Shown here: positions 45,878 to 63,122 of the stretch, piece by piece
Numbering within the stretch: the stretch's first letter is position 1
Layout: the number at the start of each line of letters is the position of its first letter
Assembly: GCA_937997635.1 (NCBI GenBank)
Contig: CALLFA010000050.1
Coordinates: 47,092-111,091, forward strand
DNA length: 64,000 nt
Reading direction: 5' to 3'
Source of the DNA: an uncultured Saprospiraceae bacterium
GTDB taxonomy: Bacteria; Bacteroidota; Bacteroidia; Chitinophagales; Saprospiraceae
Notes under the pieces: generated by a model
The model's input: the letters and a program-made list of their open reading frames with translations, nothing else
The model's database searches: none
Told to the model about the DNA's origin: nothing
Translations under genes and position numbers: made by a program

Positions 45878-46955
45878 TTAGATTCTTATTTCATCAGGAA
45901 AGTATATGAGTGGTTTTTTATTTTGGCTAAAAGCGTGTAGTCTCAGAAACCATAATCCAATACCGGCTGATCCTTGCATCAGTCCTGTTTGAGCTGCGAC
46001 TTCGCTAGGTCTGCGCCGATGCTCGGCATGTACCCACTTCATTATTCCATCTTGGTGATCTGCATTATTTATAATGGTATTTGTAATCTTTTCAACATAA
46101 TTCAAAATACCCTTTTTCATTAGATAATTGATCTAACAAATGTGCTGTTTTGAGTGAAGCATCAAGGAATTTTTTCTGACCTGTTCTGTGATAAGTTTGT
46201 GATAAAAAGAAAGCAACTCCAGAGGCACCGTGAGAGAAGTTATCAGTGTAGTTTTTATAACTCGGATCGAATTTCCATCGAAGTCCATTCATAGTATCTA
46301 TTGCAGAATCCAGTAACCCTTCTGCAATTTGGACGGATAGATTTTCTGCTTTTTCAGATTCGAGTTCATCAGATATATAATGCATAAACAGTCCGATTCC
46401 AGCACTTCCGTAAAGCATTTCGGATATCTGTCCCCAATGGATACCATTCTTAGATTTTTCAGCAGATTGTTCAATCAGGTCTATAGAACGGAGTACTGAC
46501 TGTTTATATCGCTCGTCGTTCGTTACTTTGTACATCTCGTAAACAGTAAATGCATGACCAGCCACACCAACATATAGTCCTACTTCGTAAGGATTTGAAA
46601 TGGTATCTGGAATTGTTTCAATCAAATATTCAGTTCCGGCTATTGCCTCATCCAAATATTTAGATTCTTTGGTAGCATTGTATAACTCTATGTAGAAGAG
46701 AATGATTCCTGGAGATCCATGATATAGCGTTTGATTGCCTTTGGAGTCAATGCTATCTGGCATCATTTGCCATGTTGTACCATTTGGAGTTTCATATTTG
46801 GATTGAGCTATATATTTTTCTGTTTCGATTGCTAGGGATAACCAGTTCTCTTTTGTAGCTACATTTGTCTTTGTATCAGTACAATTTGAATATAATATGC
46901 TACAAACTGCTATGAGTAAAAGCAATCTTATTTTGTATCCTTTCATAGTAATCAT
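45878..46955 (-). pseudogene. LanC-like-fold lipoprotein, frameshifted into ORFs 46092-46955 and 45878-46120
   Basis: Lipobox LYSNC; repeated G-x-x-G motifs (HGSPGIILF, GVAGHAF, YGSAGIGLF, SHGASGVAF, QGSAGIGLW); the reading frame changes at the GAAAAAGGG run near 46110. Confidence 0.75.
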
Positions 46956-47418: not shown

Positions 47419-48756
47419 CACATCTGTCCAAAATAAAATTTAGAGCATAAAACACCACCTATAAAGTCTACAAAAAGCTTTATAAAATTGATTAATTAAA
47501 ATCCAACCCTATATTCTTAAAATAAAGTATTAATTGGAGGAGGATTTGCTTTTTTAATAATGGGATTATCTAGCCAAAGCCAAAGGCTGATTTTGACAAA
47601 TAAATTGATCCTTAGAAAAGTAACCAAGTTGGATAAATTCCACTTGTATTTAGCCTTACTTTTTAGATAGCTAAATAGCAAAATGGCGATCATCGAACAC
47701 CACATTTGTATTCTTACTGCATTTTCAGAAGTACCGACAAATGTTTTGATTCTAAAAAGTTGTTTGAGGTGTTTGAAAAAGACCTCTACATCCCATCTAG
47801 CCTTATAAAGTTGGGAAATGGTGTCTGCTGTCCAAGATAAGTTATTAGTCAAAAGAACTAATGTTTGATCATTTTCTTTATCATATATCTTGACGATACG
47901 AAGCCTTTTTGGGTAGTTTTGAGAGCTGTAAAAGCCTGTAAGCCTTATGTCTTGGTCACTGAGAATATGGTCTTGTTTTTCATGTGTCAAGAATGTTTGC
48001 ACAATTTGTATATCAGCATTTGACTTTAGCCTTGTTACAAAGAATACGCCATTGCTGTCCAAATTATATAACCATTGGTAATCTACATAGGCTCTATCCA
48101 CGACAAGTACGGAATCTTTAGGAAACACAGTATGTTTGGCCACATTTACATCGTGTTTCTTTCCATCGGTAATAGCTGCATAGCTTGGTAATCCTGTATC
48201 ATAGTCTAGTACTGCATGTAATTTGACTGCTCCTTTCTTAGTTCTAAATTTAGCCCAATCGAATAGCGACAGGCATAGAGGTATGAGACTAGAATCCATG
48301 ATGAATATCTTACGTCTTAGCTTAAGCGCATATTTACGTCGTTTAGCTAAACTAGGCTCCAGTTGATCTAATAAAGCAAAATAAAGATCCTCAAAGATTA
48401 TTGCTTTGCGATGTATATTGAGGTAGCTTACTGATGATTTACTCGGGGCTTTCTCTACTCCTAGATGGGAAAGATTACCTGTAGCACTTTTTAGACCATT
48501 ACTGATATCCCGAAGCGAATCAACTTTAGAAAGTTGCATGAATAGCATCGCAACAAAATGAGTCCAAGTATTAATTCCCTTACTATGTTTATCTGAATCA
48601 TGTTTCTTTACAATACGATTGAATATTCTTCTATCAATTTGCTGTAAGACTTGGCTAAAAAGAGATACTTTTATGGCAGACATGGAATATGGTTTTGATG
48701 CACCCTAAGTATAGGGAAAAACCTCCATGTCTTTTTATTTATTTTGGACAGGTGTG
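47419..48756 (-). mobile_element. Complete IS4-type insertion sequence (1338 bp)
   Basis: Terminal inverted repeats CACATCTGTCCAAAATAAA / CACACCTGTCCAAAATAAA (18/19) and 9-bp direct repeats ATTTACATT; encloses transposase. Confidence 0.93.
47517..48683 (-). CDS. IS4-family (DUF4372-type N-terminus) transposase
   Basis: KKHDSDKHSKGINTWTHFVAMLFMQL...IMDSSLIPLCLSLFDWAKFR...LVVDRAYVDY...YKARWDVEVFFKHLKQ (YREK-like). Confidence 0.93.
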   Translation of the reverse strand: MSAIKVSLFSQVLQQIDRRIFNRIVKKHDSDKHSKGINTWTHFVAMLFMQLSKVDSLRDISNGLKSATGNLSHLGVEKAPSKSSVSYLNIHRKAIIFEDLYFALLDQLEPSLAKRRKYALKLRRKIFIMDSSLIPLCLSLFDWAKFRTKKGAVKLHAVLDYDTGLPSYAAITDGKKHDVNVAKHTVFPKDSVLVVDRAYVDYQWLYNLDSNGVFFVTRLKSNADIQIVQTFLTHEKQDHILSDQDIRLTGFYSSQNYPKRLRIVKIYDKENDQTLVLLTNNLSWTADTISQLYKARWDVEVFFKHLKQLFRIKTFVGTSENAVRIQMWCSMIAILLFSYLKSKAKYKWNLSNLVTFLRINLFVKISLWLWLDNPIIKKANPPPINTLF

Positions 48757-49476: not shown

Positions 49477-50046
49477 ATGAATAACAAAATGAATAGACTA
49501 ATAGGACTTCTATTAGTATGTATTGCCGCATTCTCACTATCCTCATGTGAGGAAGAATTTAGTGAACCCGTACTTATAAATTATGACGGTGAAAATTTAA
49601 CTGGGCCTACATTTCCTGCAGGTACATATGTTACTGCAGCAAGATTTCCTTCAATGATGACATCAGAATATGAAGGCCAAGAATTACAAGCTGTTGATGT
49701 TTATGTTTTACAACAACCAAGCAGCGCCAGAATAGTGGTTTATAGGGGCGGTGACTCTAATACAAACCCTGGAAATGTAATAAGTAGTCAATCAATAGAA
49801 TCACTTGAGTTGAATAGTTGGAATAGAATAAATCTTAATAATGCAGTTAATATTGATGGGTCTGAAATATGGATCGGACTTGAATTTAGTGTCGATGCAA
49901 ATTCCCAAATTATAGGTTGTGATGCTGGTCCCCGCGACGAAAATGGAGATTACTTATTTATTGGGAGTAACAATCTTTGGGCAACATTCAATCAATTAGC
50001 CCCTGATGTAAGTGTCAATTGGAACATCAGAGGCGTAGTAAATTAA
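49477..50046 (+). CDS. Small lipoprotein, hypothetical
   Basis: LLVCIAAFSLSSCEEEF lipobox. Confidence 0.7.
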   Translation: MNNKMNRLIGLLLVCIAAFSLSSCEEEFSEPVLINYDGENLTGPTFPAGTYVTAARFPSMMTSEYEGQELQAVDVYVLQQPSSARIVVYRGGDSNTNPGNVISSQSIESLELNSWNRINLNNAVNIDGSEIWIGLEFSVDANSQIIGCDAGPRDENGDYLFIGSNNLWATFNQLAPDVSVNWNIRGVVN

Positions 50047-50088
50047 AATGTTTTAAACGATTTAATTAACAAATTTAAATATGAAATT

Positions 50089-50454
50089 ATGAATAATGCA
50101 AATTTACACCTACAAATGGTGCAAGAATTAGTCAGTAGATCCTGGAAAGATTTACAATTTAAGAAAGAAGCAATCGCAAATCCTGCGACTGCTATTGAAA
50201 AACTCGGTTATGAATTAAACCCAGCTGCTGTGAGTTCAATTATAGTTGTAGATCAAACCGATCCATCAACAATATTTTTTAATATTCCAAGAAATATTGA
50301 TAAGGAACTTAGTGAGCAACAACTAGATACTGTTGTCGGAGGTGTTGGAAATGCTTGTCATGACATAGCTCAGTGGGCTACAAATATGGTTCAAGATGCA
50401 GTTGAAAATGTTGCTGTATTTACTTGGAACAATTTACACTTACTTATTGCATAA
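50089..50454 (+). CDS. NHLP-leader RiPP-like precursor peptide 1
   Basis: Nitrile-hydratase-alpha-like leader (WKDLQFKKEAIANPATAIEKLGYELNP...IIVVDQTDPSTIFFNIP) ending in LSEQQLDTVVGG. Confidence 0.85.
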   Translation: MNNANLHLQMVQELVSRSWKDLQFKKEAIANPATAIEKLGYELNPAAVSSIIVVDQTDPSTIFFNIPRNIDKELSEQQLDTVVGGVGNACHDIAQWATNMVQDAVENVAVFTWNNLHLLIA

Positions 50455-50488
50455 GTTTAAAATATAGTAAAAATTTAAATACAAAATT

Positions 50489-50860
50489 ATGAATAATACA
50501 AATTTACACCTAAAAATGGTGCAAGAATTAGTCAGTAGGTCTTGGAAAGATTTGCAATTTAAGAAGGAAGCTATAGCGAATCCTGCGACAGCTATTGAAA
50601 AACTCGGTTATGAATTAAACCCAGCTGCTGTGAGTTCAATTATAGTTGTAGATCAAACTGATCCATCAACAATATTTTTTAATATTCCAAAAAACATTGA
50701 TAGGGAACTAAGTGAGCAACAACTAGATACTGTTGTCGGAGGTGTTGGAAATGCTTGCCATGACATAGCTCAGTGGGCTACGAATATGGTTCAAGACGCA
50801 GTTGAACATGTTGTGGATAGTATAGCACTAATTATTTCTCAAACTAGCCATAAATTTTAA
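50489..50860 (+). CDS. NHLP-leader RiPP-like precursor peptide 2 (tandem duplicate of 1)
   Basis: Leader and first part of core near-identical to peptide 1; last ~20 aa unrelated. Confidence 0.85.
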   Translation: MNNTNLHLKMVQELVSRSWKDLQFKKEAIANPATAIEKLGYELNPAAVSSIIVVDQTDPSTIFFNIPKNIDRELSEQQLDTVVGGVGNACHDIAQWATNMVQDAVEHVVDSIALIISQTSHKF

Positions 50861-50895: not shown

Positions 50896-51327
50896 ATGAA
50901 TACTTTTACAGAAAAAATCCAACTTAGCAGTCAAGTATATAGTGAGATTGTGTCACGATGCCATACTGATACTAAATTTAAAAAGAATTTTATTGAAGAC
51001 CCGAAATCTACTTTAGAGTCATTTCTTGGGTCTAGTTTTAATCTTCCATCTGGTATGAGAATACAAGTTATTGATCAATCGAATGATGGCGAAGTATATA
51101 TTAATATTCCAAACCAACAAAATGTAATAAGCATCAATAATAAAATTAGAGAAAACTCTTCTCTGTCTGAGGAAGAATTGGATCAAGTTGTTGGAGGTGG
51201 TATATTTGCTATTGATTGTCCAGCATGGGCAATAGGTGCTATTGGAGTTGCCGTTGGAGGTTTAGCATTGAATGCAGCAATTAATATTGCAGATGGAATA
51301 TGGGATGGTTTAACGGATGGTCAATAA
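50896..51327 (+). CDS. NHLP-leader RiPP/bacteriocin-like precursor peptide 3
   Basis: RCHTDTKFKKNFIEDPKSTLESFLG...IQVIDQSNDGEVYINIP...LSEEELDQVVGG then Gly/Ala-rich hydrophobic core. Confidence 0.82.
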   Translation: MNTFTEKIQLSSQVYSEIVSRCHTDTKFKKNFIEDPKSTLESFLGSSFNLPSGMRIQVIDQSNDGEVYINIPNQQNVISINNKIRENSSLSEEELDQVVGGGIFAIDCPAWAIGAIGVAVGGLALNAAINIADGIWDGLTDGQ

Positions 51328-51844: not shown

Positions 51845-52252
51845 ATGAATTTACAAGAAGTATTATCACAAGTCATCAGCGAATGTTGGAGCAACCCAAA
51901 TTTTAAAGCTGAATTTATTGCTAACCCAGAAGAAGCAATTAAAACATTAACTGGGAAAACAGTTGTCTTACCAGAAGGCATGGATTCTATTCAAGTAGTA
52001 GATGAATCTAATCCTACGACTATTTATGTAAACATTCCTGCAGAGCCTAATTTAGATAATGTTGAATTATCGGAGCAAGAATTAGAAATGGTATCTGGTG
52101 GATCTGTGGAAGCTTTTAATGCTATAAAAATCATTAGATGTGGAACTAATATTTTGCCAAGAACTGGTGGTCCAGTAATATCTCTTCCTGAAAAGCCACA
52201 GGGATATCCAGGAGGTACGCCTATTTTTATACCAACAACTCATGAAAGGTAA
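51845..52252 (+). CDS. NHLP-leader RiPP-like precursor peptide 4
   Basis: ECWSNPNFKAEFIANPEEAIKTLTGKTVVLPEGMDSIQVVDESNPTTIYVNIP...LSEQELEMVSGG. Confidence 0.85.
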   Translation: MNLQEVLSQVISECWSNPNFKAEFIANPEEAIKTLTGKTVVLPEGMDSIQVVDESNPTTIYVNIPAEPNLDNVELSEQELEMVSGGSVEAFNAIKIIRCGTNILPRTGGPVISLPEKPQGYPGGTPIFIPTTHER

Positions 52253-52296: not shown

Positions 52297-52824
52297 ATGA
52301 AACGAGTACTCTTCGTCCTGGGACAACTCAGCGACAATGACATCGAATGGATGATCGATAGCGGCACAAAACAACAATACCTTGCTGGTGAGCATTTGGT
52401 AAAACAAGGTGAGACAATCGATCATATATACATTGTTCTCTCTGGAGAATTCAAAATTTACAATGAAGAGAGATCAGCTCTTGATATTGCAAAGATTGGA
52501 TCCGGAGAATTGGTAGGAGAAATGTCTTTTCTTGACGAGAGACCTCCTTCTGTATCCGTACAAGCAACACGAGACTCCAATGTCTATGCAATCTCACTTG
52601 ATGTTGTCAAGCGTCGCATGGAAGTGGATACGCGTTTTGCTGCAAGCTTTTATTACTCAATCGCTTTATTCTTATCAAATCGATTGAGATCGACGACTAG
52701 TAAACTGGGTTATGGGATCCCAGAAGATGAAGTAGATGAATTAAACATGAACGTGTTAAATGAAGTGGGTAAAGCTGGAGCAAGATTCAGTCGAATTTTG
52801 AATAAATTTTCTGAAATCAACTGA
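52297..52824 (+). CDS. Cyclic nucleotide-binding-fold protein without HTH
   Basis: LVKQGETIDHIYIVLSGEFKIYNE...GELVGEMSFLDERPPSVSVQA; too short for a Crp DNA-binding domain. Confidence 0.82.
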   Translation: MKRVLFVLGQLSDNDIEWMIDSGTKQQYLAGEHLVKQGETIDHIYIVLSGEFKIYNEERSALDIAKIGSGELVGEMSFLDERPPSVSVQATRDSNVYAISLDVVKRRMEVDTRFAASFYYSIALFLSNRLRSTTSKLGYGIPEDEVDELNMNVLNEVGKAGARFSRILNKFSEIN

Positions 52825-52825
52825 T

Positions 52826-54394
52826 ATGAAATCATCTTTTTTTGCTTCTTTTTTCGCGTTCTGTTTTATAACAATGAATGCGCAGATGGACGAGATGCAA
52901 TCTTCGGATTGCACTCTTGTATCCATCTGTGAACTGGCCGGTCATGTTAATCCTAGTATTGCGGCACAACAATTAAGTGTAGATCGTACAGAATATGCTA
53001 TCGATGTTTTGAATAGTGACTTTGATCCATTGTTTTTTGCTTCAGCAAATGCAAATCGTTCAGGAGTTAATTTAAATTCCTTAGATCCGCGTGTTGATTT
53101 GATTGGCAACATGCTCAATACGAATCGTTATGCATTGAGTGGTGGAGTGCAGAAACGTATGTTGAATGGAATGACTGTGAATTCTTCGCTTGAGTTCAAC
53201 CGGGTTTCTGATAACATTCCTATTAACGTATATACCGAGATCGTTGGTAGCCATATAGGTGATAATGCGACAGCGTTAAATCTTTCTCTTGTTCAACCGT
53301 TATTAAGAGGTAAAGGGAAAAAGTATAATGCAGCACCGATAGAAATAGCGAAGCTCGATGCAAAAACCGAACAGTCTGGATTGACGTTTAGTACCTCCGA
53401 GCAAATGCAAAATGTGGTTCTGGCTTACTGGCAGTATTATAGTGATTACCAACGGCTTAAAATTTTTAAAACAAATGAGCGTAGGGTAAGAAGCGTTCTT
53501 GAAATGACAACAGAACTGGTAAATGCAAACAGGCAACCAGCCAGTGATTTGTTGCAAATTCAGGCTGATCTGTTAGATAAAGAAAGACAAGTTATTACAG
53601 CCAAACAAAATGTCTATGCTGCCCGTCAAAATCTTGGCAGATTTATAGGCTTGTCAGAAGAAGACAGCCACCGAATTGGCAAACCAACAGATATTTTTCC
53701 GGAAGTAGTATTGGATGAGGCTGTGTCGGCACAGAAACTGATTGATATTGCACTTAGTAATCGCATGGATTTAGATATGCTTGACAAGCAAAAATCCAGA
53801 TCAGAAATATTACTTGATTTAGCGAAAAATGATCTGCAGCCTAATCTCAATTTGACTGGGACAGCTCGCTATGGTGGTACTGATTTTGGGAATGGCCTAC
53901 ATCGGATTGTCACACCTTTAGCGACAGACGATGGCAGGAACTATACTATAGGTATTGGTCTAAGTTATGATATCCCTATTGGAAACAAACGTGCCGAGTC
54001 AACTGTGCTGATTAACCAAACGAATGTTTCCAATCAGGAACTCCTGTATGATAATCAGAAACGAAATATAGAAATCAATGTATCTATTGAGTATAACAAC
54101 TTAGTGAATTCTGTAGACGCAGTAAACAAGTCGCGACAGACGCTTGAATATTATGAAGAAGTATTTGATAATGAACAACTTAAATTTCAAAATGGTCTGT
54201 CGACGATTCTTAATTTGATTCTCTTTCAAGAGAGACTCACGTTTGCACAACTAGAATACATTTTTAATCAACAACAAATGGCAAGCGCTATCGTGCGACT
54301 TCGTCATCAAACAGGTACGTTGGTAGAATCTGCATATAATGAATTGACTATTCAGAATAAGCATGTTTTTTATCAATTGCCAATCATCAAATAA
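52826..54394 (+). CDS. TolC-family outer membrane efflux protein
   Basis: Signal peptide; ALNLSLVQPLLRGKG..., paired helical repeats, YEEVFDNEQLKFQNGLSTILNLILFQERL. Confidence 0.85.
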   Translation: MKSSFFASFFAFCFITMNAQMDEMQSSDCTLVSICELAGHVNPSIAAQQLSVDRTEYAIDVLNSDFDPLFFASANANRSGVNLNSLDPRVDLIGNMLNTNRYALSGGVQKRMLNGMTVNSSLEFNRVSDNIPINVYTEIVGSHIGDNATALNLSLVQPLLRGKGKKYNAAPIEIAKLDAKTEQSGLTFSTSEQMQNVVLAYWQYYSDYQRLKIFKTNERRVRSVLEMTTELVNANRQPASDLLQIQADLLDKERQVITAKQNVYAARQNLGRFIGLSEEDSHRIGKPTDIFPEVVLDEAVSAQKLIDIALSNRMDLDMLDKQKSRSEILLDLAKNDLQPNLNLTGTARYGGTDFGNGLHRIVTPLATDDGRNYTIGIGLSYDIPIGNKRAESTVLINQTNVSNQELLYDNQKRNIEINVSIEYNNLVNSVDAVNKSRQTLEYYEEVFDNEQLKFQNGLSTILNLILFQERLTFAQLEYIFNQQQMASAIVRLRHQTGTLVESAYNELTIQNKHVFYQLPIIK

Positions 54395-54416
54395 CAAATA
54401 AATAAAATATACATTT

Positions 54417-55679
54417 ATGTCAGCTCCTGGATTTTTTAGAAAGGCAGCCTTAGAAAAGCTGTCCACACCCGAAAAATTAGACCAATTAATTCGCATTACA
54501 AGCCTTAGCGCTTGGTTGGTATTAAGTATGGTGTTTATCGCTATTAGTGGTGCTTTGTTATGGGGATTTCAAGGCAAAGTAAAAACGAAAATAAATGCCA
54601 TGGGCGTTTTGCTTGGTGGAGAAGTTTATGATGTCGTATCCACTTCAAGAGGGCAGCTGGTAAAGCTACATGTCGAAAATGGAGACATTGTTACTGCTGG
54701 TGATGTCATCGCAGAGGTAGAGCAACCAGAATTAATGATGCAAATAGAATCTGTCAAATCAACCCTTTCGGAAAAAGAATATGAGCTGGCGCAGATGGAT
54801 GCATTTGGAAGCGAAGATTCTCGTATCCAGGAAGAATTAATGGAAAAACAGAAGTCAAATATTGAATCTGAAATAGTTGCACTTAACAAAAATCTGGAAT
54901 TCTTAAATCAAGAATTGATTGTTAATAAAAATCTTTTAGAGAAAGGATTGATTACAAAGCCTCAGGTAATAGCTACAGAAAGGCAGATAGATGATATTAA
55001 GAATAATATTCAAAGATTAAACGCTTCTGTTGTCCAGATTAATTCTCAAGAACTCAATAACGATTTTAATCTACAAAGTAGAAAGGCCTTAATCCGTCAA
55101 AGGATTACCCAGGATAAGTTGAGATTAAAACAACTAGAGGAACAGTATGAGAAAAATACAAATATCACAAGTCCACACACTGGAGAAGTAATTGAATTAT
55201 TGACAAGCTCTGGAATCGTTGTTGGAGCTGGATCTCCATTATTTAAAATAAAAAGCAATACGACTTCTGAAGGAAACCTTAGAGGAGTTCTTTATGTACC
55301 TGCGCAAGAAGGGAAAAAGATCACCGTTGGTATGCAAGCACTGGTTGTCCCTTCTACAGTTAAACCACAAGAACATGGCTATATAAAAGCAACGGTTAAG
55401 CGTGTTTCTGAATTTCCCGTCACTCAACAAGGTATGATGGCCTCTATGCAGAATGATCAATTGGTGAACAGTATGCTACGATTAGGAGCTCCGTTTGAAG
55501 TCGTTGTTGAAATTGAAAAAAACGCAGATACACCCAGTGGGTTTAGTTGGACATCTGCTGAGGGACCAGATATTTCTATAAACACTGGCACATCATGTAT
55601 GGGAAAAATTACGGTGAAAGAAGAAGCGCCTATTGCTATGATTGTCCCAGCATTTAAAGAGTTTTTTGACCTGTACTAA
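54417..55679 (+). CDS. HlyD-type membrane fusion protein (NHLM secretion protein type)
   Basis: N-terminal FRKAALEKLSTPEKLDQLIRITS, single TM, coiled coil, biotinyl-lipoyl-like NGDIVTAGDVIAEVEQPEL and TSPHTGEVIELLTSSGIVVGAGSPLF. Confidence 0.88.
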   Translation: MSAPGFFRKAALEKLSTPEKLDQLIRITSLSAWLVLSMVFIAISGALLWGFQGKVKTKINAMGVLLGGEVYDVVSTSRGQLVKLHVENGDIVTAGDVIAEVEQPELMMQIESVKSTLSEKEYELAQMDAFGSEDSRIQEELMEKQKSNIESEIVALNKNLEFLNQELIVNKNLLEKGLITKPQVIATERQIDDIKNNIQRLNASVVQINSQELNNDFNLQSRKALIRQRITQDKLRLKQLEEQYEKNTNITSPHTGEVIELLTSSGIVVGAGSPLFKIKSNTTSEGNLRGVLYVPAQEGKKITVGMQALVVPSTVKPQEHGYIKATVKRVSEFPVTQQGMMASMQNDQLVNSMLRLGAPFEVVVEIEKNADTPSGFSWTSAEGPDISINTGTSCMGKITVKEEAPIAMIVPAFKEFFDLY

Positions 55680-55692
55680 AAGACATATTTAA

Positions 55693-55770
55693 ATGGAAAT
55701 TATTCTTGCTTTTGCTGGTCTTTGTGTGTTTATGTGTTTGCATTTGAAAACAAAAAATTCAAATCAGTAG
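55693..55770 (+). CDS. Possible 25-aa single-TM peptide
   Basis: MEIILAFAGLCVFMCLHLKTKNSNQ* between HlyD and C39-ABC genes; below the ORF-track length threshold. Confidence 0.3.
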   Translation: MEIILAFAGLCVFMCLHLKTKNSNQ

Positions 55771-55785
55771 AACTGAATAAAATAG

Positions 55786-58026
55786 TTGAAGAATTATAAA
55801 TTGAAAAAGAAGATGAACTTTATTTCTACAATAAAAGAAAAATTCAAAAAGTCTCCGCCTAAAAAGAAACTAGTGGCAACACCCGTCAAGACGCCAACAG
55901 TGTTACAGATGGAGGCAGTGGAGTGTGGAGCTGCAGCGCTTGCCATTATTTTAGGCTATCATGGCAGACATGTGCCTCTTGAAAAATTGAGAGTGGCATG
56001 TGGTGTTTCTAGAGATGGATTAAAAGCAACCAACTTGATGAAAGGAGCGAGATCATATGGTCTCGAAGCAAAGGGATACGCCAAGTCTGTTGAAAAACTG
56101 AAAGAGATGCAAATGCCATGCATCATCTTCTGGAACTTTAACCACTTTTTAGTCTTAGAAGGATTCGGTAAGGATAAAGTCTATCTCAGCGATCCTGCTC
56201 AAGGACGATATACCGTAGACCAAAAAGAATTTGATGAATCATTTACAGGGGTAGTGATTAGTCTGAAGCCAGGTCCGGATTTCGTACAGAAGAATGAAAA
56301 ACGAGGATTAATTCCTTCTCTTAAACCTCGTATTTCAAATTCGAAATTGAGTTTGTCGTTTATTTTATTGGCTAGTTTATTTCTAGTCATTCCCGGATTA
56401 ATTATTCCTTCATTTACTCAGATTTTTATTGATAAGTTTTTGATTAATAACTTATCCAGTTTTGTCATGCCTCTTTTATTAGGTATGGTTGGAGTGTTGA
56501 TAATCAATGCCATCTTGGTTTTTGTGCAACAATATTATCTGTTGCGACTGGAAACTAAATTAGCATTAACAATGTCGAGCCAATTTTTATGGCATACTTT
56601 CCATTTACCAATTACATTTTTTACCCAACGATTTGCTGGTGACATCAGTAACAGAGTTTCCCTTAATGACAAAGTTGCAAGATTATTAAGTGGAGATTTG
56701 GCTAATTCATTACTCAATGTGATTGTCGTGCTTTTTTACGCGATTCTGATGTTTAGCTATGATGTCATGTTGACTTTAATAGGCATCACTACTTCTATAT
56801 TAAATGTGATAGCATTAAAAATGGTGTCGAGGGCAAGGACTGATGGCAACAGACGATTGACTAATGAGTCAAACAAACTAATGGGTAACACGATGTCTGG
56901 AATCAGCATGATTGAAACACTAAAGGCGTCCGGACGTGAAAGTGACTTCTTCACATCTTGGTCAGGATACTTGGCTAAAGTCTTAAATGGACAACAAGAA
57001 TTGGGTTATATCACCTTGAAGTTTAATGTCATTCCTCCACTACTTATGTCTTTAACCAACACGATGGTACTTGGTGTTGGAGCGATGAAAGTGATGAATG
57101 GTGATTTGACCATAGGTATGTTGGTGGCCTTTATTTTTCTGATGAATAGTTTTATTCGACCGGTTAATCAATTGGTAGCGACTGGTAGTTTGTTGCAGGA
57201 GACAGAGGGTGATATGAATGTGATTGATGATGTATTAAACTATGAAGTGTCAGAAGAATTTAATGATGAAAATAAGATTGCATTCTCAAAAACAGATAGT
57301 GCTAAGCTTGTGGGAAGTTTAGAATTAAAAGATATCACTTTCGGTTATTCGACTGCATTGGATCCTCTGATCGAAGGATTTAGTATGCACTTAACACCTG
57401 GAAGTAGAGTGGCGCTTGTTGGCGGTTCTGGTAGTGGTAAATCAACAGTCGCGAGATTGGTTTCTGGCTTATATAGTCCATGGAAAGGGGAGATTTTACT
57501 TGACGGCAAACCTAAGCAAGATATTCCTCGAGAGGTTATCAATAATTCTTTGGCTGTCATCGATCAGGATATTTTAATGTTTAAAGGTTCCATCAAGGAC
57601 AACATCTCTTTTTGGGACGATACAATGGAAGAAGCAAACGTCATTCGCTCAGCAAAGGACGCGAACATCCATGAAATGATTGCTTCAAGAGTTGGCTCTT
57701 ACGATAGTGAAGTCGCTGAGAGAGGAACAAACTTTAGTGGTGGACAAAAACAGCGGATTGAAATAGCTCGTGCATTAGCACTCAACCCATCCATTTTGGT
57801 AATGGACGAAGCAACAAGTGCACTCGATCCAAAGTCTGAAAAAATAGTCATGGATAACATTCGAAGAAGAGGCTGTACTTGTCTTGTTGTTGCTCATAGA
57901 CTTAGCACGATTAGAGATTGCGATGAAATTATCGTGATGAATTTTGGAAAGGTTGCCGAAAGAGGCACACATGAAGAATTGTTAGAAAAAAATGGCCTTT
58001 ACGCCAAATTAATAAGCTCAAAGTAA
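55786..58026 (+). CDS. NHLM-type peptidase C39/ABC exporter
   Basis: C39: VLQMEAVECGAAALAIIL, NHFLVLEGF, LSDPAQG; ABC: VGGSGSGKSTVARL, FSGGQKQRIEIARAL, LVMDEATSALD. Confidence 0.93.
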   Translation: MKNYKLKKKMNFISTIKEKFKKSPPKKKLVATPVKTPTVLQMEAVECGAAALAIILGYHGRHVPLEKLRVACGVSRDGLKATNLMKGARSYGLEAKGYAKSVEKLKEMQMPCIIFWNFNHFLVLEGFGKDKVYLSDPAQGRYTVDQKEFDESFTGVVISLKPGPDFVQKNEKRGLIPSLKPRISNSKLSLSFILLASLFLVIPGLIIPSFTQIFIDKFLINNLSSFVMPLLLGMVGVLIINAILVFVQQYYLLRLETKLALTMSSQFLWHTFHLPITFFTQRFAGDISNRVSLNDKVARLLSGDLANSLLNVIVVLFYAILMFSYDVMLTLIGITTSILNVIALKMVSRARTDGNRRLTNESNKLMGNTMSGISMIETLKASGRESDFFTSWSGYLAKVLNGQQELGYITLKFNVIPPLLMSLTNTMVLGVGAMKVMNGDLTIGMLVAFIFLMNSFIRPVNQLVATGSLLQETEGDMNVIDDVLNYEVSEEFNDENKIAFSKTDSAKLVGSLELKDITFGYSTALDPLIEGFSMHLTPGSRVALVGGSGSGKSTVARLVSGLYSPWKGEILLDGKPKQDIPREVINNSLAVIDQDILMFKGSIKDNISFWDDTMEEANVIRSAKDANIHEMIASRVGSYDSEVAERGTNFSGGQKQRIEIARALALNPSILVMDEATSALDPKSEKIVMDNIRRRGCTCLVVAHRLSTIRDCDEIIVMNFGKVAERGTHEELLEKNGLYAKLISSK

Positions 58027-58032
58027 TTAACG

Positions 58033-60327
58033 ATGAAACTTAGTGTTACAGATACATATTTGAAGCAAAACAGACCATTTTATTTAGATCAACACGATCA
58101 TTTTTGGTTAATTGTCAGTGGTGAGGTCGAAGTCTTTTACATTGAAAAAGATGATGGCGGCAATTTAATTGGTGCGAGACAATACATGTACACTGCATCA
58201 AAGGGTGAAATGTTATTCAGTATGCGACATACTGAAACGAAAAGTAATATTTCATTATTTGCAATAAGTGAAAACGCAAAATTGCTTCAAATAAATAAAT
58301 CCAGTATTAAAAATGTCGAGTCCTCAGACTTGTCAGTGCGCATCGAAAAATGGATCAATAAATGCAGCTCTTATTGCTCTGAAATAAATTACCCAAGAGA
58401 CTACATTAATTTGGCTGATAAAACGGAATGCCAATTAAAAAAGGGACAGATTGCCTATCCTGCTGAAGGCCTTTCTTGGGTAGAATGTAAAGAAGGGGAT
58501 TTAAATATTTATGGTCAATCGATACGATTAGAAGAACAAAAAATAAAAAATAATTTGGTGCCAGTTATTGGTAACTTATTTATTCAAGCAAATCAAAAAT
58601 CAGACCTTAATATTTATTCGACATCGGATGTTGTTGAAGATGAAATTACATTAATGTTTGCTGTTGAGCATTTACAAGCTCACTTTCTTGAGTGTCTATC
58701 AAACAAGTTGGCAGAGAATAAAGCCAGATATGAATCTGGATTTCAAAAGAAAAACTCTAATGACACAGAATTATTAGAATCGAGTCTTCATGGTCTGAAG
58801 TCAATTGTAACTGATGATCCTAATAAGAAGGTTTTTCAGGATATTTCAAATAGTAATGATGTACTAGCTGCTTGTCAAGTTATTGGCAATTTGGTTGGAT
58901 TTACATTTAAGGAACCAAAATATATTGATGATAATCATAAAGGCTTAACAAGTCAACTGCATGAAATAGCTAAAGTATCTAATGTCCGATTACGTAAAGT
59001 TATTCTGAGAGGCAAGTGGTGGAATGAAGAAAATGGTCATTTATTTGCATTCATTAAAGAAAGTCAGAAAGCTGTAGCGTTAGTACAGAAAAGAGGAGGC
59101 GGATATTTGCTCAAAGATCCAGAGACAAAAGAAATAGTAGAAGTGGATGAAGAGGTTTCTGCTACACTTGATCCCGTATCCTACATGTTTCTATATTCCT
59201 TTGATCAAAAAATGACAACCGTAGCAAAGTTGTGGAATTTTGCAATCAAAGGGCTTAAAAAGGACGCTATCTGGATTTTAGTTGCTTCTCTTGCTGGTAG
59301 TTTGATTGGTTTGATTATTCCTATTGTTACTGGAATCATGTATGACGATGTTATTCCTCAAGCAGATGAATCATTTTTATTTGAGGTAATCGGCATTTTG
59401 GTTTTAATTGCAATTGTAAATTCATTTCTAGGATTTATAAAAGGAATATTATTATTAAGAGTGGAGACTCAATCTAATTTGACCATACAGGCGGGGCTCA
59501 TGGATCACCTGTTACGGTTACCAGTTAATTTTTTCAAGCAATATACAGCCGGTGATTTAACGATGCGTGCTCTGGGAATAAATACAATTAGACAAATAGT
59601 TTCTGGTGTTGTCATGACAGCCGTATTGAGCGGTGCTTTTTCTATTGTCAATCTTGGATTACTCTTTTATTACGATGTTAAATTGGCTTTAGTTGGCGTA
59701 GCCTTATCTGCTATTGCAGTTATATTTATAGTTTCCATGGGACTTTTGAAATTGAAATATGATAGACAAATTTCAGATCAACATGGAGAAATCCAGGGTT
59801 TGTTATATGAGTTTTTAAGTGGTATTTCGAAAGTACGAATTGCAGGAACTGAAAAGCGCTTTTTTGCCCTATGGGCGTCCAAGTTTGGACAATTTAAACT
59901 TCTTGGATTTAAATCTGGTAACCTTCAAAATTTCGTAGAAGTATTTAATGGCACGTTCCCATTAGTGACCAATATTTTATTTTTTGGATTTATATATTAT
60001 GCATTGACCACTGCAGGTGCAGCTGGTGCTGGTGTCATATCTGTTGGTATTTTTATGGCCTTCATTTCTGCTTTTAGTCAGTTTTTACGTGACTGCTTAA
60101 GTATGAGTCATGCAGTTATATCTTCACTGAATATGGTGCCCCTTTATGAAAGAGTAAAGCCAATATTAGAAGAAGAACCTGAAACACACTTGGATAGCAT
60201 CGATCCAGGCGAATTAACAGGAGATATTGAAATGAATTCTGTTTCCTTTAGATATAATGAAGATCAGCCATTAGTACTGGAAGACGTTTCATTCAAAATA
60301 AATGCAGGTGAATGGTTGCATTTGTAG
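58033..60327 (+). CDS. NHLM-type second ABC exporter subunit, N-terminal and TM part (frameshifted)
   Basis: Divergent N-terminus, TM region, NBD start EDVSFKINAGEW; frame ends just before Walker A. Confidence 0.82.
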   Translation: MKLSVTDTYLKQNRPFYLDQHDHFWLIVSGEVEVFYIEKDDGGNLIGARQYMYTASKGEMLFSMRHTETKSNISLFAISENAKLLQINKSSIKNVESSDLSVRIEKWINKCSSYCSEINYPRDYINLADKTECQLKKGQIAYPAEGLSWVECKEGDLNIYGQSIRLEEQKIKNNLVPVIGNLFIQANQKSDLNIYSTSDVVEDEITLMFAVEHLQAHFLECLSNKLAENKARYESGFQKKNSNDTELLESSLHGLKSIVTDDPNKKVFQDISNSNDVLAACQVIGNLVGFTFKEPKYIDDNHKGLTSQLHEIAKVSNVRLRKVILRGKWWNEENGHLFAFIKESQKAVALVQKRGGGYLLKDPETKEIVEVDEEVSATLDPVSYMFLYSFDQKMTTVAKLWNFAIKGLKKDAIWILVASLAGSLIGLIIPIVTGIMYDDVIPQADESFLFEVIGILVLIAIVNSFLGFIKGILLLRVETQSNLTIQAGLMDHLLRLPVNFFKQYTAGDLTMRALGINTIRQIVSGVVMTAVLSGAFSIVNLGLLFYYDVKLALVGVALSAIAVIFIVSMGLLKLKYDRQISDQHGEIQGLLYEFLSGISKVRIAGTEKRFFALWASKFGQFKLLGFKSGNLQNFVEVFNGTFPLVTNILFFGFIYYALTTAGAAGAGVISVGIFMAFISAFSQFLRDCLSMSHAVISSLNMVPLYERVKPILEEEPETHLDSIDPGELTGDIEMNSVSFRYNEDQPLVLEDVSFKINAGEWLHL

Positions 60328-60935
60328 GACCATCCGGTTCAGGAAAATCTACTGTCATGAGATTGTTGCTAGGCTTCGAAGAGCCAGAAGCTGGGTCTAT
60401 CTTTTTTGATGGTCAAAGTTTTGAGACATTGAATAAGGAGATGGTGCGAAGACAAACAGGTGTTGTGTTACAGAATGGATCGCTGATGTCAGGTTCAATA
60501 TTTAATAATATAGTTGGCAATTCAGAATTAACTTTAGAACAAGCAACACAAGCAGCCAATATGGCAGGTCTCGAAGAAGACATTAAGCAGATGCCTATGG
60601 GTATGCATACAGTCATCAGTGATGGTGCTAGTACATTTTCAGGTGGTCAAAGACAGCGATTGATGATTGCGAGAGCAATTGTCCACAAACCAAGGATGCT
60701 CTTGATGGATGAAGCTACTAGTGCCTTGGATAACAGGACGCAAACAATCGTTTCACAAAGTTTGGATAAGTTGCAAGCGACAAGAATTATTATCGCACAT
60801 AGATTGAGTACTGTTATGAATGCTGACAGAATTTATGTGATGGATCAAGGTAAAATAGTAGAACATGGTAGTTATAATGAATTAATGCAAAGAGATGGGC
60901 TGTTTTCAACACTAGCAAAAAGGCAGATAGCGTAA
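60312..60935 (+). CDS. NHLM-type second ABC exporter subunit, nucleotide-binding domain
   Basis: VAFVGPSGSGKSTVMRLLLG; FSGGQRQRLMIARAI; LLMDEATSALD; continues 58033 in the -1 frame. Confidence 0.88.
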   Translation: MVAFVGPSGSGKSTVMRLLLGFEEPEAGSIFFDGQSFETLNKEMVRRQTGVVLQNGSLMSGSIFNNIVGNSELTLEQATQAANMAGLEEDIKQMPMGMHTVISDGASTFSGGQRQRLMIARAIVHKPRMLLMDEATSALDNRTQTIVSQSLDKLQATRIIIAHRLSTVMNADRIYVMDQGKIVEHGSYNELMQRDGLFSTLAKRQIA

Positions 60936-60965
60936 GAGATAAAATCAGAGATTTGATTTCTGAAA

Positions 60966-63122
60966 ATGAAAAGACAAAATTCGCGGGATTTCATGGATAT
61001 GAGAGAGGTGCTATTTACACAAATATCAAAAATATCAGGTGCCATTTCGACGGCAATTAATTCTGATCGAACGACAATATTTGTTTCGAATATTGAAAAA
61101 AATATACTGGAGTGCTTATATGCTGAAGGTATAAATGATAAAAAACTCTTGACAATTCCTATAGGAAGAGGTATCGCTGGATATGTTGCAAACTCAAAGA
61201 AGAGTTATCTAACTAATGATGTTTCTAAGAGTTCTATATTTGATCCATACTACGACAAAATAACAGGGTACCGAACAAAAAGAATAATTTGTTGTCCTAT
61301 TCTTAATGAATTAAATGAGTGTGTAGGAGTTATACAAACATTAAATAAAAATGATGAATTATTTACAAGTCAGGATGTAAAAATACTGGAAGGTTTTGCT
61401 TCGACTGCAGGTATATTAATTCAAAATTATAATATGTATGCTATAACCAGTCAAATGAAGAATGGTGTAGACACGCTACTTAATGTTTCATCTATCATAA
61501 ATTCTGAACTAGAACTAGAAAAAGTAATTGAACTAATTATTAATAAATCCTCAGAAATAACTAATTCTGACCGAAGTACTTTCTTTCTTTTTGACCATAT
61601 AAATGATGAGCTTACTACTTACTTTGGTCAAGGCTTGAACAATATAAAAATAAAGACAAATAAAGGAATCGTTGGTGAAATAGCAAAAACCAAAAAACCA
61701 ATTATTGAAAATAATCCTTATCAGAATCCTTATTTTGATCAGACTGTGGACCAGTCCACTAAATATTTGACAAAGTCAATTCTCGGCGTTCCTGTCTTAG
61801 ACACTAATAATGAGTTAATTGGAGTTATTGAAGTCATTAATAAAAGAGATGGAAATTTTACGGAACAAGATTTATTAATCCTTAAAGGATTTGCTTCCCA
61901 TATTGCAATAGCAATTCAAAATGCAAAGTTGTTTGGTGAGGTGTATAGCATGAAAAATTATTTCAATTTACTATTTGAAAATTTAGATAATGGAATTATA
62001 ACTTTTGACAAAGACGGCTATGTTAAAACCATTAATTCGAAATTCTGTAACTTATTTGACATACAGAAAGATACTTATCTAAATAGGCATTTTGTAGATT
62101 TAGAGGCAGATTTTAAACACATATATCAAAACACTAAACGCATATTTGAGTCAGGAATTCGACAAAAACTAACTGGTCTAGAAGTATTAAAAAGTGATGA
62201 TAAGAAATCAATTTACAATTTGAGTTCTCTCCCTATGAATAATATAGAAGGTGGAAATATAGGAGCCATAAATGTAATTCAAGATATAACAACCGAGACC
62301 AGAGTTCAGCAAAATTTAAGAAGATATTTACCAAATCATTTAGTCAATGAAATTTTTAATAAAGACGATTTGTCATTATTAGATGGTAAGTACAGAAGAT
62401 GCAGTATTTTATTTTCAGATTTAAGAAACTTTACTACTATTACTGAAAAAATGGGTGCTATCGAAGTAGTTAAATTCCTAAATGGCTATTTCAGCACGAT
62501 GGTAGATTCTGTAATTAAGAACAATGGCATTTTGGATAAATTTATTGGAGATGCTATTATGGCCGTCTTTGGAATCCCTTATCCAGACATAGATGATGTG
62601 AAAAATTCAGTGCTTTGTGCTCTAAATATGTTAGAAAAATTAAAAGAATTTAATAAGAGTAATTCTAAAGGTGTAACATTAGATGTTGGTATTGGTATTG
62701 CAACCGGGAATGTTATTTCAGGAAATGTTGGTTCGAGTAAAAGATTTGAATATACGGTTATTGGAGATTCTGTAAACTTAGCCTCTAGACTTGAAGGATT
62801 GTCAAAATTATACAATTTAAACATTATAATTTGTTCTTCTACGTATAACAAAATATCTGAAGACTTTCACTGTAGAGAAATTGACACCGTATTCGTTAAA
62901 GGCAAAAATATGTCTACTAAAATTTATAATGTCATTGAGAGTAAATCAAAAACACTAAGTGATTCTGTACTAGAATTTAATCAGCGATATTCCAGTGGTC
63001 TACAATACTTAAAACAGAAAGATTTTCAAAGAGCAAATGAATATTTTCTAAAAGCAAATTACATTGATCCTAATGATCAAGCAACTGTGATACAATTGAA
63101 AAAACTAGCGGATAAATTATAA
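60966..63122 (+). CDS. GAF-GAF-PAS class III nucleotidyl (adenylate-type) cyclase
   Basis: Two GAF units, PAS (LLFENLDNGIITFDKDGYV), cyclase CSILFSDLRNFTTITE, LDKFIGDAIMAVFG, YTVIGDSVNLASRLE. Confidence 0.93.
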   Translation: MKRQNSRDFMDMREVLFTQISKISGAISTAINSDRTTIFVSNIEKNILECLYAEGINDKKLLTIPIGRGIAGYVANSKKSYLTNDVSKSSIFDPYYDKITGYRTKRIICCPILNELNECVGVIQTLNKNDELFTSQDVKILEGFASTAGILIQNYNMYAITSQMKNGVDTLLNVSSIINSELELEKVIELIINKSSEITNSDRSTFFLFDHINDELTTYFGQGLNNIKIKTNKGIVGEIAKTKKPIIENNPYQNPYFDQTVDQSTKYLTKSILGVPVLDTNNELIGVIEVINKRDGNFTEQDLLILKGFASHIAIAIQNAKLFGEVYSMKNYFNLLFENLDNGIITFDKDGYVKTINSKFCNLFDIQKDTYLNRHFVDLEADFKHIYQNTKRIFESGIRQKLTGLEVLKSDDKKSIYNLSSLPMNNIEGGNIGAINVIQDITTETRVQQNLRRYLPNHLVNEIFNKDDLSLLDGKYRRCSILFSDLRNFTTITEKMGAIEVVKFLNGYFSTMVDSVIKNNGILDKFIGDAIMAVFGIPYPDIDDVKNSVLCALNMLEKLKEFNKSNSKGVTLDVGIGIATGNVISGNVGSSKRFEYTVIGDSVNLASRLEGLSKLYNLNIIICSSTYNKISEDFHCREIDTVFVKGKNMSTKIYNVIESKSKTLSDSVLEFNQRYSSGLQYLKQKDFQRANEYFLKANYIDPNDQATVIQLKKLADKL

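Follow-up and report, generated by a model that had tools for sequence, protein, structure and literature searches.

To our knowledge, it is not settled how the NHLP and Nif11 families of peptide precursors come to carry hypervariable cores on conserved leaders. The array described here puts the origin of new tails in a testable form, because two of its precursors make up a young pair that breaks within the core and not at the Gly-Gly site. A visible break of this kind points to a route that can be tested, a duplication joint, unlike point diversification or cassette exchange. The array lies in a window of 64,000 nucleotides, which is the whole stretch of DNA that was analysed. This AT-rich window belongs to a 5.36 Mb assembly of 252 contigs from an uncultured Saprospiraceae bacterium, with an estimated completeness of 88.8%. 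In the NHLP paralogues described by Haft, Basu and Mitchell (2010), the leader is conserved, a Gly-Gly site is present and the cores are hypervariable. The precursor families adjoin TIGR03794/03796/03797 exporters, and intragenic recombination has been invoked for the relationships among leader families; published conservation stops at Gly-Gly (PMC2887384).

A young tandem pair in an NHLP precursor array

The four NHLP precursors of the window are the only ones that a protein search found in the assembly (Table 1). ORFs 1, 2 and 4 scored 51.8, 52.2 and 55.7 bits against TIGR03793, all above the cut-off of 50.9, and ORF 3 scored just under it, at 50.0 bits. Like the published TIGR03793 families, they carry a long nitrile-hydratase-alpha-like leader that runs to Gly-Gly, form a paralogous array and have a three-gene NHLM exporter nearby. 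The linked TIGR03794/03796/03797 exporter is present beside the array, and the cassette is an ordinary Bacteroidota NHLP export locus. Among ORFs 1/2, 3 and 4 the hypervariable region starts directly after Gly-Gly. Within the pair 1/2, in contrast, and unlike in the published families, the two sequences continue to match for approximately 22 residues into the core before the break.

Table 1. Features of the precursor array and the exporter cassette (positions within the window)
Feature	Position	Strand	Remarks
3' end of lipoprotein-like gene (49477-50046)	50000..50046	+	Proposed source of tail 1; suggestive only
NHLP precursor 1	50089..50454	+	121 aa; leader up to VVGG (residue 85); core start VGNACHDIAQWATNMVQDAVE shared with precursor 2; separate tail NVAVFTWNNLHLLIA
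Break and divergent tail in copy 1; proposed joint of the duplication	50410..50454	+	Microhomology ATGT
Spacer between precursors 1 and 2	50455..50488	+	Homologous to spacer 50047-50088 upstream of copy 1
NHLP precursor 2	50489..50860	+	123 aa; leader and core start as in precursor 1; tail HVVDSIALIISQTSHKF
NHLP precursor 3	50896..51327	+	143 aa; unrelated hydrophobic Gly/Ala-rich core
NHLP precursor 4	51845..52252	+	135 aa; Pro/Gly-rich core
Cyclic-nucleotide-binding domain protein	52297..52824	+	Best NCBIfam match TIGR03896, 133.1 bits (cut-off 161)
TolC-type outer membrane protein	52826..54394	+	
HlyD-type adaptor	54417..55679	+	TIGR03794, NHLP bacteriocin secretion protein; 303 bits
C39 peptidase/permease/ATPase exporter	55786..58026	+	TIGR03796; 1066 bits
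Second ABC exporter (ABC2)	58033..60935	+	TIGR03797; split in two ORFs, one base missing near 60310-60316
GAF/PAS class III nucleotide cyclase	60966..63122	+	End of conserved cassette

Precursors 1 and 2 are adjacent, lie on the same strand and are 94% identical. Over codons 1-107 (321 bases) the ungapped alignment shows 19 differences, 14 of them synonymous and 5 nonsynonymous (dS 0.246, dN 0.020), and the VVGG cleavage motif occupies residues 82-85 in both. When the alignment was divided into segments, dS was 0.23 for codons 1-86 and 0.30 for codons 87-107, which form the core start, and dN was 0.02 in each. These rates are much the same in the leader and in the initial 21 residues of the core, so constraint on the core start resembles that on the leader, and both are under purifying selection (dN/dS ~0.08). 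The approximately 36 bases 5' of each ATG are also alike, and the spacer between the two genes matches the spacer upstream of copy 1 in register, with none of 150 shuffles as good (p<0.007). These results bear out the original prediction that near-identical leaders are followed by abruptly divergent tails. The recent tandem duplication that it proposed is supported by adjacency, strand and identity, and by the inclusion of the upstream spacer. The other explanation that had been offered, strong diversification, is not supported in the form of point changes, since purifying selection reaches up to the break and the tail breaks off sharply instead of diverging by degrees.

The two halves of the split second ABC exporter scored 469.8 and 394.5 bits against TIGR03797, each alone below the 709-bit cut-off. 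Within 60305-60325, their ORFs overlap at 60312-60324, and the missing base (GGTGAATGG) lies just 5' of the Walker A motif. The split is either a sequencing error or a pseudogene, and it raises the possibility of a decaying cassette.

The break in the core and the origin of tail 1

Identity between the two genes was 17-20 of every 20 bases up to base 320, then dropped to 8 and 6 of 20. The edge of similarity is sharp and falls at GTTG (50410-50413 in copy 1 and 50810-50813 in copy 2), the last common residue being the V of NV/HV at codon 108, which has no base differences. Thus, the similarity ends as abruptly as had been predicted, but it extends two codons further than was thought. Beyond this edge, the final 15 or so residues are entirely different, and global and local alignments of tail 1 with tail 2 were no better than those of dinucleotide-shuffled sequence (p 0.19-0.82), and the same was true of a pair-HMM (p 0.37).

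We considered whether an indel or frameshift could reconcile the two tails. The whole gene could have been duplicated and then have acquired a 1-base indel near the break, after which the frameshifted tail drifted or was quickly selected. The best ungapped register of the tails is indeed offset -1, with 24 of 49 identities, and tail 1 read in frame +1 ends in HKF, as tail 2 does. However, at the measured dS ~79% identity is expected under neutral drift, compared to the 49% observed at this offset (P = 3e-6), and gapped tail alignments were no better than shuffles. Thus, a simple indel is insufficient to account for the two tails and was rejected as the sole cause of their difference; duplication followed by such an indel is the least probable of the readings that we weighed. 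A frameshift in much older paralogues may lie behind the two tails.

The reading that we favor, and to which we give close to an even chance, is a single tandem duplication whose joint fell within the core, in precursors of secreted, bacteriocin-type peptides exported by the linked C39/HlyD/TolC system. The duplicated segment would have run from approximately 50005, at the 3' end of the lipoprotein gene that lies upstream, into the core of a single ancestral gene. Copy 2 would have kept the original tail, which we take HVVDSIALIISQTSHKF to be, and copy 1 would have been joined at the ATGT microhomology to the copied 3' end of the lipoprotein gene, giving it the new tail 1. If the end of a tandem duplication falls within a gene, the upstream copy has to acquire its tail from a copy of the upstream flanking sequence. 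A joint within the gene is suggested as the simplest cause, because no second event is required.

The likeness between tail 1 and the 3' end of the lipoprotein gene is suggestive of such an origin. TTGGAACA at 50019-50026 is in register with 50424-50431 and in the same reading frame. The match gave p values of 0.0005-0.004 against coding-tail shuffles, 0.007 by pair-HMM and 0.006-0.02 against all window positions, and of 0.07-0.12 against window segments that end in TAA, 7-12% of which score as well. For the coding tail alone, the best pair-HMM log-odds score was negative (-3.7), and the match fits best at 40% divergence, compared to the 22% expected. Tail 2 did not match the 3' end of the lipoprotein gene (p 0.27). 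We also tried other parts of the cluster, on either strand, as a source of the tails, and rejected them: of 16 tests, a single one gave a hit (p 0.037), which is at chance level. No close relative of the locus showing the pre-duplication state was found. Pattern scans of genome_contigs recovered no relatives of the precursor or exporter, and a search of 100 related genomes for the precursor yielded only distant paralogues, in 2 of them.

A sharp edge could also be left by gene conversion, if older paralogues with already different cores were homogenised over a tract from approximately 36 bases 5' of the ATG as far as codon 109. Lying outside this tract, the tails would have retained their old divergence. 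Arrays of related genomes do hold many neighbours with diverged cores, and there is a faint tail-to-tail similarity at offset -1, which ends in CATAARTTT. Yet that similarity is not significant (p 0.09-0.37), the differences are spread over the block with no clear mosaic (longest identical run 68 bases, p 0.19), and the match of spacer plus tail 1 to the upstream flank is not predicted by conversion. On balance we find homogenisation of older genes, with retention of their old tails, less probable than the duplication joint, but still a serious rival to it. Tail replacement, as first suggested for this pair, holds as a description, but no separate donor was found. Import of either tail from a different gene or genome, as in cassette-like tail shuffling, would suit the non-homologous tails, the sharp edge and the presence of an IS-type transposase ~1.4 kb upstream. 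However, the search for tail donors elsewhere in the genome returned no credible candidate for either tail, the best hits being AT-rich background (E at least 0.005). Likewise, no near-identical core was found in genome_contigs, viral contigs or plasmids, and no precursor in viral contigs. Separate recombination is accordingly improbable.

Tandem copying and export cassettes in related arrays

We compared the pair with other arrays, using 90 leader-positive ORFs, collected at 19 loci in the window's genome and in related ones, which form 53 neighbouring pairs. Leader identity across these pairs ranged from 59 to 96%, and the cores of most pairs were near background. The window pair (94%) was the second youngest of the 53, and the youngest was a pair in genome G719 (96%; locus L079, 12915-13667, minus strand). 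The G719 cores differ only in their last 6-8 codons (GASVGF versus DASVSVSK), so this pair too breaks inside the core. Its spacer is homologous to the upstream spacer, but its short coding tail alone gave no match to the upstream flank (p 0.64-0.76) and is too uninformative for the pair to serve as independent proof of the joint model. In G049 (L013, 5934-6760) the reverse of the window pair was seen, with a diverged mid-core and a conserved C-terminus (NQKR..KGKKHW). NHLP arrays thus grow through tandem copying, with cores diverging in several ways. The window pair is a further case of the already known variability of NHLP peptides, and perhaps a duplication caught while making a new tail. 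We raise, as a tentative generalization, that new RiPP or bacteriocin precursor tails could arise in one step, when a duplication joint falls inside the core and the upstream copy reads into copied upstream sequence. If so, each duplication in a precursor array would generate new peptides.

Nif11/prochlorosin-type precursors (TIGR03798) resemble those of the window in joining one conserved leader to many different cores, but their leader belongs to a different family. Moreover, prochlorosins are LanM-dependent, whereas a search of the window's genome, at an assembly completeness of ~89%, recovered no LanM dehydratase domain (PF13575). NHLP-bearing genomes exist in the same class, and the named plasmid hit is from Spirosoma (Bacteroidota). 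Like the window, the Spirosoma oryzicola plasmid (NZ_CP089546.1) and genomes G719, G751, G1142 and G157 carry tandem NHLP precursors with exporter genes. Common to these arrays are genes for a cNMP-binding protein, TolC, HlyD and C39-ABC, with cyclase genes near. The S. oryzicola array is adjoined by LanM and a lantibiotic dehydratase and G333 has a LanM-type protein, whereas the window has none of these.

A cNMP-binding protein and a GAF/PAS class III cyclase flank TolC-HlyD-ABC1-ABC2 in the same order in the window (52297-63122) and at loci L015 and L109, and the cyclases of these three cassettes are 46-48% identical. This conserved arrangement around the exporter suggests that cyclic nucleotides may control NHLP peptide export in Bacteroidota. 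A second, TPR-type cyclase is found in many arrays. Locus L112 was also covered in this comparison.

Export and predicted activity of the peptides

C39-ABC/HlyD/TolC systems have known roles in cleaving and secreting peptides. Given these roles, the exporter and the Gly-Gly leader suggest that the cores are cleaved and secreted (PMC2887384). Cleavage would occur after VVGG, through the C39 peptidase, with export of the core via HlyD and TolC, and by homology the exported core would have an antibacterial role. The shared core start forms a strongly amphipathic helix, whose value was reached by none of 5000 shuffles, and contains one Cys. The amphipathicity of tail 1 was not significant. We also asked whether the tail helices extend the hydrophobic face of the core start, and rejected this, as their phase is ~90 degrees off. 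The cognate cyclodehydratase or lanthionine synthetase that would place the peptides among TOMMs or lanthipeptides was not found: no cyclodehydratase was seen in the cluster, which sets the window apart from the NHLP families, and the only related feature was a LANC_like fragment with a signal peptide. Because the genome also lacks a detectable LanM dehydratase domain, the product is most likely an unmodified, membrane-active peptide of the bacteriocin type.

Two genes upstream of the array were also noted. The transposase gene (47517-48683, minus strand), ~1.4 kb before the first precursor, encodes DUF4372 and DDE_Tnp_1 domains. Farther upstream, a LANC_like protein (45878-46955, minus strand) has a lipoprotein-type signal peptide, an unusual location for a LanC fold, and a one-base indel near 46110, within a run of A and G, interrupts its gene, with a fragment at 46092-46955.
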